Positions 58,563 through 61,772 of a stretch of 64,000 nucleotides of DNA are shown piece by piece. Made by a program: the position numbers and the translations under genes. Source of the DNA: an uncultured Pseudorhodobacter sp. (GTDB lineage: Bacteria > Pseudomonadota > Alphaproteobacteria > Rhodobacterales > Rhodobacteraceae); contig CAJXWJ010000004.1 of assembly GCA_913062925.1 (NCBI GenBank), positions 1 through 64,000 of the forward strand, written 5' to 3'. A model generated the notes under the pieces. It was not told where the DNA came from, did no database searches, and saw nothing but the letters and a program-made list of their open reading frames with translations. Within the stretch, counting starts at the first letter, position 1. Each line of letters starts with the position of its first letter.

Positions 58563-59491
58563 CCAAGCAGCCTGCGCGCCAGCATCTCGGCGCGGGCAAG
58601 GTGGCTTTTGTGCACCGGATCGTCGGGCGGCAACCTTGGCGCCGCCCAACCGACCGAGGCGCAGACCCGCGCCAAAGTGAACAGATCGGCCAGCTGCGGC
58701 GTGATCGCAGGGTCTGCATAGCCCTCGATCAAGGCGGCGCGGATCTCGGGATAGGCGGGCTCGTAAAGGTTCTGACTAAGCACCGTGCCCAGATCATAGG
58801 GGCGCAGACCAAAACCGGAATCGTCAAAGTCGATCAGCGAAAGCGAACTGCCGTTCACTAAAACATTTTCGCGCAGCACATCAGCATGAATCAGGCCGCT
58901 ATTCCCCGTTGCCGCGTAGCTTTGCAGACCGCCCAGCAAAAACACGCGCGCCTCTTGCAGCAGTGCGGTTTGACGCGGGCTTGCCAAAGGATGCTCCCAA
59001 AACCGGCCCCAGAACGGCGTCTCGCCCACTAGACCCGCCACATCCCAAGCAGGGCGCTGGAAATCGGGGGGCAGCAGCAGGCTATCGGTGACGCGATGCA
59101 CCCGCGCCAACAGCTGGCCCAGATCGTGATGCCGCTGCAAAATACTGGCCAAGGGCAGATCAAAGCCCTGCCCCGCCTCGCCCAGCGCCTCGCCCTCGAC
59201 CCAAGTGATCACCGAGGCATGCCGCCCATTCGACAAGCGCTGCAAAAACTGGCCATCAAATGCGGGCAGCGCTGCCGGAACCGCAACGCCCTGCGCCGCC
59301 ATCTGGGCGCACCACCACAGCTCGGACGCAATCGCAGCGGGGTCTTGATAGCCGATCCGATGCAGACGCAAGGCCGCCCGCCCCGACGGAATCGCAATTT
59401 CAAACACCGCATTTTCGCGATTGCGCAACAGACGCAGCGGCTTGCCTTGCCACAGCGCAGCGGCTTCGCTGGCAAGAGCTGTCAGGGTCAT
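58559..59491 (-). CDS. Aminoglycoside phosphotransferase/homoserine-kinase-fold phosphotransferase
   Basis: NSGLIHADVLRENVLVNGSSLSLIDFDDSGFGLRPYDLGTVL (Brenner-type catalytic loop). Confidence 0.88.
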   Translation of the reverse strand: MTLTALASEAAALWQGKPLRLLRNRENAVFEIAIPSGRAALRLHRIGYQDPAAIASELWWCAQMAAQGVAVPAALPAFDGQFLQRLSNGRHASVITWVEGEALGEAGQGFDLPLASILQRHHDLGQLLARVHRVTDSLLLPPDFQRPAWDVAGLVGETPFWGRFWEHPLASPRQTALLQEARVFLLGGLQSYAATGNSGLIHADVLRENVLVNGSSLSLIDFDDSGFGLRPYDLGTVLSQNLYEPAYPEIRAALIEGYADPAITPQLADLFTLARVCASVGWAAPRLPPDDPVHKSHLARAEMLARRLLG

Positions 59492-59910
59492 TCTTCGTCC
59501 AAGGGTTTGCCGCGCAGGGCTTTGGTGGTGCCGCGCTGCGATTTCGCGGCCATGCGGCGCAGCTGACTGCCATAGGTGGGCTTGGTGGCAATGCGGCGTT
59601 TGGGGGCGATCAGCGCGGTGCGGATCAGCTCGACCAGCCGCTCGCGGGCGATTTCGCGGTTGCGCAACTGGCTGCGGGTCTCGTCCACTTGCAGCACAAT
59701 CGCGCCTTCCAGCGTCCAGCGCCGGCCCGCAAGTTTCTTCAGCCGCGCCTTCACCGAGGCCGCCAAACTGGGGCAACGCTCGGCCTCAAAGCGCAATTCA
59801 ACGGCCGTCGAGACCTTATTGACATTCTGCCCCCCCGGCCCAGAGGCGCGCATGAAGCTTTCCGAAAGCTCCCAATCTTGAAGGGCGATGGTGTCATTGA
59901 TCCGCAGCAT
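59488..59910 (-). CDS. arfB: Peptidyl-tRNA hydrolase/ribosome rescue factor ArfB (YaeJ)
   Basis: FMRASGPGGQNVNKVSTAVELRF (GGQ motif), basic C-terminus KRRIATKPTYGSQLRRMAAKSQRGTTKALRGK. Confidence 0.93.
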   Translation of the reverse strand: MLRINDTIALQDWELSESFMRASGPGGQNVNKVSTAVELRFEAERCPSLAASVKARLKKLAGRRWTLEGAIVLQVDETRSQLRNREIARERLVELIRTALIAPKRRIATKPTYGSQLRRMAAKSQRGTTKALRGKPLDEE

Positions 59911-59937
59911 GGCGGCAGGGTAGCGGCAGCTGCGGAA

Positions 59938-59974
59938 AAGAGAAAGGGTTGCCAGCAAGTGCGGCAACCCTTTC
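59938..59974 (-). terminator. Rho-independent terminator on the minus strand
   Basis: Minus strand AAAGGGTTGCCGCACTTGCTGGCAACCCTTTCTCTTTTCC. Confidence 0.8.
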
Positions 59975-60044
59975 CGAGATCTTAGGAGATGGGCCAGTTA
60001 GGTATCAAAGCCCAATCATTGGTGGTTTCGCTAGAAGGCTGCTT

Positions 60045-60101
60045 CTAGAAAACGCCCCCCATGACTGTCCCGACACCGCTCTCCACTATCACTCTAGACA
60101 C
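60045..60101 (-). CDS. Candidate small ORF, 18 codons (MSRVIVESGVGTVMGGVF)
   Basis: GTG start 7 nt downstream of AGGAGG within AAAGGAGGTGACCCA; in its own intergenic transcription-unit-like context. Confidence 0.4.
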   Translation of the reverse strand: MSRVIVESGVGTVMGGVF

Positions 60102-60159
60102 TGGGTCACCTCCTTTCAAAATGTTGCCGATAAGAGGATGGTGACACAGATTTTGTGTA

Positions 60160-60165
60160 TGTCAA
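60160..60165 (-). promoter_or_regulatory. Candidate -35 element (TTGACA) followed by a palindrome ACACAAAATCTGTGT (60144-60158)
   Basis: Consensus TTGACA on the minus strand immediately after the upstream gene stop; no good -10 match at ideal spacing. Confidence 0.35.
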
Positions 60166-60171
60166 AAGCTT

Positions 60172-60798
60172 TTACGCTACCCGTGCCGCATATTTCGAGA
60201 CAATTGCACGGAAAGGCATCAGCGCGATGATATCAACAGCAACTTTGACACCCCAATCGGCAAACCCCAGCGAAACCCACAGCGGCACCGCAGGGCCAAA
60301 GCCCAGCAAAGGCACGCTTTCGATCGCCCAAGAGATATCATTGCCTGGCTCGATCCAGACCAATGTCGCCGAAAACGCGATGCTGAAAAACAACAGCGTG
60401 TCGACGCTGGAGCCAAGGAAAGACCCCAAAAACGGCGCGCGCCACCAAGCAGAGCGGCGCAGGCGGTCAAACACACTGACGTCCAGCAGTTGCGCCACAA
60501 GGAAAGCCACGCCCGAACCAATCGCGACGCGCAGCGTCACCAAGGGCCCGTATTCGCCGATGATTTGCGTGCCGATCAGCGAACAAATCAGGCCAACCAC
60601 AAAGCCCGCATAGACCACCCGCCGCGCAGCTTGCACGCCGTGAAAGCGGTTGACGAGTTCCGAGACCAGAAAGGCAAAGGGATAGGTAAAGGCACCCCAG
60701 GTCAGCCATTGGCCGATTGGATATTGCACAAGGATGTTAGAGACCACCACAACGATGGCCATGGCGATAACGCCGGGCAGAAGTTTGTTCATGTTCAT
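60172..60798 (-). CDS. VUT-family / queuosine precursor transporter (YhhQ-like)
   Basis: VVVVSNILVQYPIGQWLTWGAFTYPFAFLVSELVNRFHGVQAARRVVYAGFVVGLICSL; SSVDTLLFFSIAF. Confidence 0.9.
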   Translation of the reverse strand: MNMNKLLPGVIAMAIVVVVSNILVQYPIGQWLTWGAFTYPFAFLVSELVNRFHGVQAARRVVYAGFVVGLICSLIGTQIIGEYGPLVTLRVAIGSGVAFLVAQLLDVSVFDRLRRSAWWRAPFLGSFLGSSVDTLLFFSIAFSATLVWIEPGNDISWAIESVPLLGFGPAVPLWVSLGFADWGVKVAVDIIALMPFRAIVSKYAARVA

Positions 60799-60875
60799 TC
60801 CGTTTTTTACAAGGTCGCGGAGACTTGGATGCCCCATGTCGGGACGCGGCGGCTTAGACCCTGCGCTGCGGGCTG

Positions 60876-61772
60876 TCAATCGGGCAGGCGATACTCGACC
60901 AATTGCGTGCGCAAAAAGAAGGCAAAGTTATCGTCCGACACCATGCTCGCCCGCAAATGGCCCTGCGCATCCCGCCAGATCGACAGGCCTTCAAGGTTGT
61001 CATAAAGCCCCGTCGGGGTCTCTAGCAGCGTGGTTTCCTCGGTCATCGCATCTGGCGTCACGGTAAATCGGCGCAGGCGGCTGGCAAAACCGGCAAGGCC
61101 GCGAAAATCACGCTCCAACAGATAATAGCGGCCATCAGGGCCAAAATCTGCGCCCACAGGCAGAAAGCCACCGTCACGCCGCACCGACAAAGTGCTGTCC
61201 CAGCTGCCAGCTTGAAACCGATAGACCGGAAAGGGGATGTCTGCGTTTCCACTCCGCTCAGGCAGGGTGTAAAGCGCACCATCCGGCGCAATCGCCAGCG
61301 CCTCAAGCGAAGAGTTGACCTGCAACTTGGCAAACTCGGGGGCGCGGGGCAGGTTTTTGGCGGGGCCGTCAAGGCGGGCGTAATGCGCAACCCGCGCCCC
61401 CCCCTCGAACGAGACAAACATCGACCCATCCGCTGCAAGCGCCAAACCTTCGCTATCGGTCTGAAGCGGTTTCAGCGGCCTGCCATCCTCGCCTTGCAGC
61501 AGTTGCACCGGGGCTGCGGTCATGCTGACAATCCGGCCCTCGGCATCGCGCAGGATCTTGCCTTGGGTAAAGCCGCCGCGATCTGACAGCGCGACATAGC
61601 TTGCGCCATCCTCGGACAGTTCCAGCCCAGAAAACCCACCAAAGCGCGGATCATCGGCCCGCCAGTCAAAAGCCCCCACAAACCCAAGCGGCGGCAAGGG
61701 GCTGGCGCTGCCTTGCAGGCCCGCCAAAAACACCAGCCCAAGGCCTAACGCGAGGATAGAACGGCGGCGCAT
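60876..61772 (-). CDS. Esterase-like activity of phytase family protein
   Basis: Signal peptide; [29 protein letters not shown]...[18 protein letters not shown]...[17 protein letters not shown]...[15 protein letters not shown]. Confidence 0.88.

Follow-up and report, generated by a model that had tools for sequence, protein, structure and literature searches.

The minus strand between a yhhQ-type transporter gene and arfB, in the 64,000 nucleotides analyzed here from an uncultured Pseudorhodobacter sp. (the window), carries an element that, judged by its conservation, is a real small RNA gene, widely conserved in Alphaproteobacteria beyond chance. It is a single-copy gene, most likely forming its own transcription unit. 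On balance, we think it probable that its product is an independent small RNA that sequesters itself, with 16S rRNA and an internal mimic of the 16S tail competing for one Shine-Dalgarno (SD) sequence. An unusually strong ribosome site combined with a built-in imitation of the 16S tail that hides it suggests a switch whose position depends on whether the ribosome arrives first.

CC2171, which is filed as a noncoding sRNA of Caulobacter, appears to be one arm of this class-wide gene, which has a mini-ORF predicted to be translated and a near-maximal ribosome site, for which the RNA itself usually supplies an internal anti-SD. In Caulobacter, an SD is lacking from about 75% of genes (PMC4117421), and for that reason the element stands out. 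Should the switch prove real, it would offer a simple, testable system for the sensing of ribosome access.

Parts and distribution of the element

The first-pass annotation had described a TTGACA sequence, a palindrome, an SD, an 18-codon ORF opening with GTG, a TAG within a 7-bp hairpin, and a terminator as a compact transcription unit, and all of these parts were found in their places on the minus strand. The yhhQ-type gene, the 5′ neighbor (60172..60879; Pfam PF02592, Vut_1; the longest ORF, with an uncertain start), has its stop codon at 60174-60172. It is followed by TTGACA (60160..60165), a putative −35 element, and by the palindrome ACACAAAATCTGTGT (ACACA-AAATC-TGTGT; 60144..60158), which lies in the putative promoter spacer and is a possible operator. 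In 51 of 70 non-redundant Rhodobacteraceae loci, TTGAC occurs no more than 80 nt 5′ of the start; a pattern of the ACAC...TGTG type occurs in 33 of 70 relatives, so the palindrome belongs to only part of the family. This conservation would fit a putative promoter and a putative operator confined to some lineages.

The extended 16-nt SD GAAAGGAGGTGACCCA (60102..60117) is a complement of the 16S rRNA 3′ end, and its AAAGGAGGTG and CC are invariant in 67 relatives. The GTG start codon (60101-60099) opens the ORF VSRVIVESGVGTVMGGVF, which ends in TAG (60045..60101), and lies in a start-codon hairpin, CCAGTGT/ATAGTGG (60083..60104), with 97% of cells paired in 67 sequences. The stop codon lies in the hairpin CTAGAAG-CAGC-CTTCTAG (60031..60048; 7-bp stem, loop CAGC), where three of four tested pairs showed changes on both sides. 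The intrinsic terminator (59936..59974), a 13-bp stem followed by TCTTTT, was missed by a simple terminator scan, though its stem covaries in 10 of 10 tested pairs among the 67 relatives. SD, start, ORF, stop hairpin, and terminator are all conserved in the relatives, which bears out the compact unit; the loss of SD, start, and hairpin in alignments, named in advance as the outcome that would count against it, did not occur. Two further conserved parts had escaped the annotation: an anti-SD, CATCTCC, at 59991-59985 and a pre-terminator ATCTC at 59980-59976. The fold of the element is far more stable than that of dinucleotide shuffles (z −3.4 to −3.6), and ARAGORN found no tRNA in the element region. 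Outside the element, arfB (59488..59910, minus strand; Pfam PF00472), encoding an RF-1 domain ribosome-rescue hydrolase, has its ATG 25 nt past the T-tract.

By DNA similarity, the element was present in all 15 genomes of the genus (14 sampled congeners and the window's own) and in several further genera of Rhodobacteraceae. R1, a covariance model derived from the element, had matches in 227 of 249 genera of this family. The 19-nt core of SD and start, GAAAGGAGGTGAYCCARTG, occurred in 22 of 289 genomes across Alphaproteobacteria, once per genome, and most of these matches led into a short ORF with a terminator downstream; with at most one mismatch, it was found in 166 of 249 Rhodobacteraceae genomes. 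The reversed control gave 0 matches in both searches. Named carrier loci include Defluviimonas, Luteovulum, Gemmobacter, Bosea, Methylobacterium, Bradyrhizobium, Azospirillum, Phenylobacterium, and Brevundimonas, and many of the compared sequences are MAGs. The single match in plasmid records was to arfB. A looser pattern, AAAGGAGGTGN{0,5}TG, was dropped as uninformative since its control also matched often.

Two variations were seen among the loci. A sub-branch (L165, L166, L173, L185, and others) has an SD with GGTGGTCC in place of GGTGATCC; a G-U pair keeps the 16S pairing, and the variant can add one G-C pair with the internal anti-SD. Four loci (L087, L112, L121 (Azospirillum), and L029) carry the same extended SD before ORFs of 57-59 aa instead of the mini-ORF. 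These resemble small secreted proteins with a signal peptide and are possibly a different gene with the same SD.

RNA structure and proposed competition with 16S rRNA

RNAalifold, applied to the alignment of 67 sequences, paired the SD (GGAGGUG) with CRYCUCC, immediately 5′ of the terminator, and placed the start codon in a hairpin. In the window, this partner is the internal anti-SD CATCTCC (59985..59991, minus strand), which lies inside CTGGCCCATCTCC, is similar to the 16S tail CTGGATCACCTCC, and pairs with the SD in 97.4% of cells. C/U and A/G exchanges on the anti-SD side keep the pairing (97% of cells); the helix varies on one side only because the columns of the SD strand are fixed by 16S rRNA. 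A direct scan for covariation added a contact between the loop of the start hairpin (60094-60090) and UCUC before the terminator, in the window the strand ATCTC (59976..59980), which is the 3′ strand of this helix. Changes on both sides occurred at five of five pairs (columns 34-186, for example, are GC in 52, AU in 12, and GU in 3 of 67); the helix is paired in 78.7% of cells overall, its inner two pairs being weak. The contact could be a pseudoknot or an alternative helix. Taken over the complete proposed structure, pairing holds in 93.9% of cells, versus 44-56% when the partner is slid, and double changes occur at 20 of 33 pairs, versus a mean of 10.5 in shuffles, none of which (0/500) reached 20.

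Nearest-neighbor folding, with no pseudoknot term and no kinetics, predicted a mean pairing probability of 0.90 for SD and anti-SD and an unpaired SD fraction of 0.03 in the full-length RNA. When the RNA was grown stepwise, the SD was about 0.5 unpaired on average (0.2-0.55 in the window) and then about 0.02 once the anti-SD had been made. The start hairpin could by itself explain much of the repression. An alternative fold in which GGAG within the ORF takes the anti-SD was rejected: its inner helix fails, it is on average about 8 kcal/mol less stable, and the fold with SD and anti-SD paired beats it in 63 of 67 sequences, although a GGAG/CUCC pairing is still possible. Just 5′ of the anti-SD lies CCUAAC (59997-60002, minus strand; A1 columns 151-156), which is highly conserved in the family with no clear pairing partner and is a candidate site for pairing with a target or for binding a protein.

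The 16S rRNA 3′ end of this genome was not found in its assembly, and that of a family member, CTGGATCACCTCCTTTCT, was therefore used; GAAAGGAGGTGATCCAG is accordingly complementary to the 16S end over 17 nt without a mismatch. The SD, which the annotation had called perfect, merits the word in most relatives (AUCC, 17/17); the genus of the window (ACCC) has one mismatch. Predicted energies of the 16S duplex are −27.5 kcal/mol for the window and −32.2 kcal/mol for the consensus, versus −16 to −19 kcal/mol for the internal anti-SD, and opening the SD in the window RNA is predicted to cost 11.7 kcal/mol. The internal strand CUGGCCCAUCUCCU is similar to the 16S tail CUGGAUCACCUCCU except for a central defect, and for this reason a 30S subunit could displace it from the SD.

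From these predictions, the following course can be proposed. During RNA synthesis, the SD would be partly open, and a 30S subunit binding at this stage could translate all 18 codons, so that the anti-SD stays free. Should no subunit bind by the time the anti-SD appears, about 115 nt past the SD, the RNA would close. In the finished RNA, the anti-SD beside the terminator is predicted to sequester the SD, and the start codon lies in a hairpin whose loop has the covarying contact with the pre-terminator strand. As the 16S tail and the internal mimic compete for one sequence, the state of the RNA would report ribosome access. The output is a guess: the two states may differ in stability or in the exposure of the anti-SD to other mRNAs. 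A bolder version, which we regard as rather unlikely, is a dedicated class-wide sensor that detects free 30S subunits, or alternatively mature 16S 3′ ends, by strand exchange, in which the losing anti-SD strand would regulate other messages.

The short ORF and alternative readings

The ORF was aligned in 67 Rhodobacteraceae sequences, and stop codons were counted in a non-redundant set of 72. There were no indels in the 54 nt of the ORF columns and many past the stop, and the ORF was exactly 18 codons long in 64 of the 67. Codon 19 was a stop in 68 of 72 loci (TAG in 33, TGA in 18, and TAA in 17), and the start codon exchanged between GTG and ATG among relatives. Such exchange among stop codons is, at the level of sequence, the behavior of a selected stop. 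A comparison of the two sides of TAG, which the annotation had proposed, showed the frame kept before it and lost after it. The peptide is no more conserved than the shifted frames. With frame and stop kept while the peptide is not visibly conserved, translation, and not its product, seems to be under selection.

Several other readings were weighed. Readthrough of TAG into a product of 38 residues had been proposed from the in-frame continuation KQPSSETTNDWALIPNWPIS, which is indeed present and open in the window; we rejected it and give it almost no credence, as the frame past TAG is shifted or interrupted by stops and frameshifts even within the genus, the stop itself exchanges, and the number of open codons after it varies from 1 to 24 or more. 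It is improbable that the element acts as a small mRNA with the 18-aa peptide as its functional product. The N-terminal VSRxxLExGVGT recurs in the family and pN/pS is 0.44 in codons 2-12, but this low value falls where the RNA is paired, several conserved codons coinciding with paired positions. Over the whole ORF, pN/pS is 0.75, like the shifted frames (0.72 and 0.84), and in codons 13-18 it is 1.15, on which grounds selection on the peptide was rejected; the peptides of other orders have little sequence in common, with lengths of 14 to about 30 aa. A self-sequestered toxin message of a type I toxin-antitoxin system is more doubtful still. Its style of control would be that of the aapA3 (Helicobacter) and timP (enterobacteria) mRNAs, where intramolecular structure hides the SD of the full-length RNA and the alternatives are transient or pseudoknotted (PMC6733600, PMC11228461), and the element is likewise a short-ORF RNA with an SD computed to be sequestered at full length. 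It differs from them in having no toxin-like peptide, no known antisense RNA, and an unusually long complementarity to 16S rRNA. By inspection, the peptide is short and variable, frequently with charged residues (e.g., VSREVLERGVGTVREARI), and lacks the pattern of a membrane helix; near-universal presence in a family is atypical of toxins; and a search that was not rigorous saw no antisense partner, only one weak promoter-like match on the plus strand.

Two readings concern the RNA and its neighbor. A purely noncoding base-pairing sRNA of the CC2171 type, with an incidental ORF and an SD-like sequence that pairs elsewhere, would agree with the filing of relatives as sRNA in Rfam and with a conserved RNA structure around an unconserved peptide; nevertheless, the stop function kept at codon 19 through TAG/TGA/TAA exchange, the GTG/ATG exchange at the start, the absence of indels, and the good spacing of SD and start speak for translation, and we give this reading only a small chance. 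A translation-dependent attenuator, or leader peptide, of arfB, which would tie ribosome-rescue capacity to ribosome access, is biologically attractive. In Rhodobacteraceae, yhhQ is nearly always upstream and arfB usually directly downstream, typically about 31 nt from terminator stem to ATG. This position is not constant, however: arfB is distant or missing in several Rhodobacteraceae that keep the element (L055, L060, L067), and in other orders (where neighbors were called by a simple longest-ORF rule) different or opposite-strand genes follow it. Since elements of the same kind adjoin unrelated genes elsewhere in the class, the leader reading is weakened. The GGCAAC/GTTGCC antiterminator pairing is possible in the genus of the window and not general in the alignment. 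In many relatives, a CTANNT-like box also precedes the ATG of arfB by about 8-15 nt (in the window, region 59910-59936, minus strand), which suggests that arfB has a promoter of its own, overlapping the terminator, and a near-leaderless mRNA. In Sinorhizobium, trpL/rnTrpL is a leader-peptide attenuator whose product RNA may act in trans (PMC10117765); the element shares with it a short ORF before a terminator, but has no regulatory codon run and no constant downstream operon across the class, and SD sequestration takes the place of terminator/antiterminator switching. We judge attenuation of arfB about as improbable as a functional peptide. Among the options of the first-pass annotation (small protein, leader peptide, readthrough product, or dual-function sRNA), the last is the closest to the self-sequestering RNA that we favor.

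Some Rhizobiales-type loci (L085, L032) have DUF188 (YaiI/YqxD) after the element, and the Bosea locus (L054) has an RNase II-type exonuclease.

Relation to CC2171 and other lineages

The element matched no annotated protein gene, as the annotation had said; for RNA this did not hold, since Rfam contains a related sRNA family, CC2171 (RF01867). The element scored 27.4 bits against the full model (1-159), below the gathering score of 75. In the genome of the window, the sole match of a CC2171 search was the element (59945-60125); in another genome (G178) the CC2171 match coincided with that of R1, and the best CC2171 match in Rhodobacteraceae genomes was the element. Because of this, and because several loci of other lineages pass the CC2171 cut-off, the element and the loci of other lineages were treated as one group, with the element as its Rhodobacteraceae branch; formal membership in RF01867 fails on score.

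Both RNAs have the 5′ core GAAAGGAGGUGA(U/C)CCAGUGUCU followed by a short ORF, the CC2171 form GAAAGGAGGUGAUCCAGUGUCU differing from that of the window's genus only by U to C. Early codons of the ORF pair with a strand just before the terminator in CC2171 and may do so in a comparable way in the element. The helix is AGAG/UCUC in the element versus CAUUGUC/GACAAUG in CC2171; the former, the positional equivalent of the long CC2171 helix, shows covariation, although it is short and its sequence differs. The anti-SD lies before the terminator in the element and inside the ORF in CC2171, and the ORF has 18 codons versus mostly 20-26. Rfam describes CC2171 only as an sRNA, and a literature search outside subscription journals found no paper describing an ORF in CC2171 or the present element.

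Pairing of early ORF codons with the pre-terminator strand was seen in other lineages too. In Rhizobiales and relatives, the best partner of the SD is often within the ORF, CUGGAUNNUCGCCUC, which encodes TWxxAS, a peptide motif that recurs; RNA pairing, and not protein function, would explain recurring motifs of this kind if the switch is real. In MSSE-type ORFs (the MSS group), the partner is CAGCCUCC near the end of the ORF, and in Bradyrhizobium it is UCACCUC within the ORF. The SD is more exposed (0.37-0.40 unpaired) in lineages other than Rhodobacteraceae and Bradyrhizobium. Per sequence, the enrichment of the anti-SD over shuffles in the other lineages is modest (mean z −0.9 to −2.2); its position is largely constant inside each lineage group.
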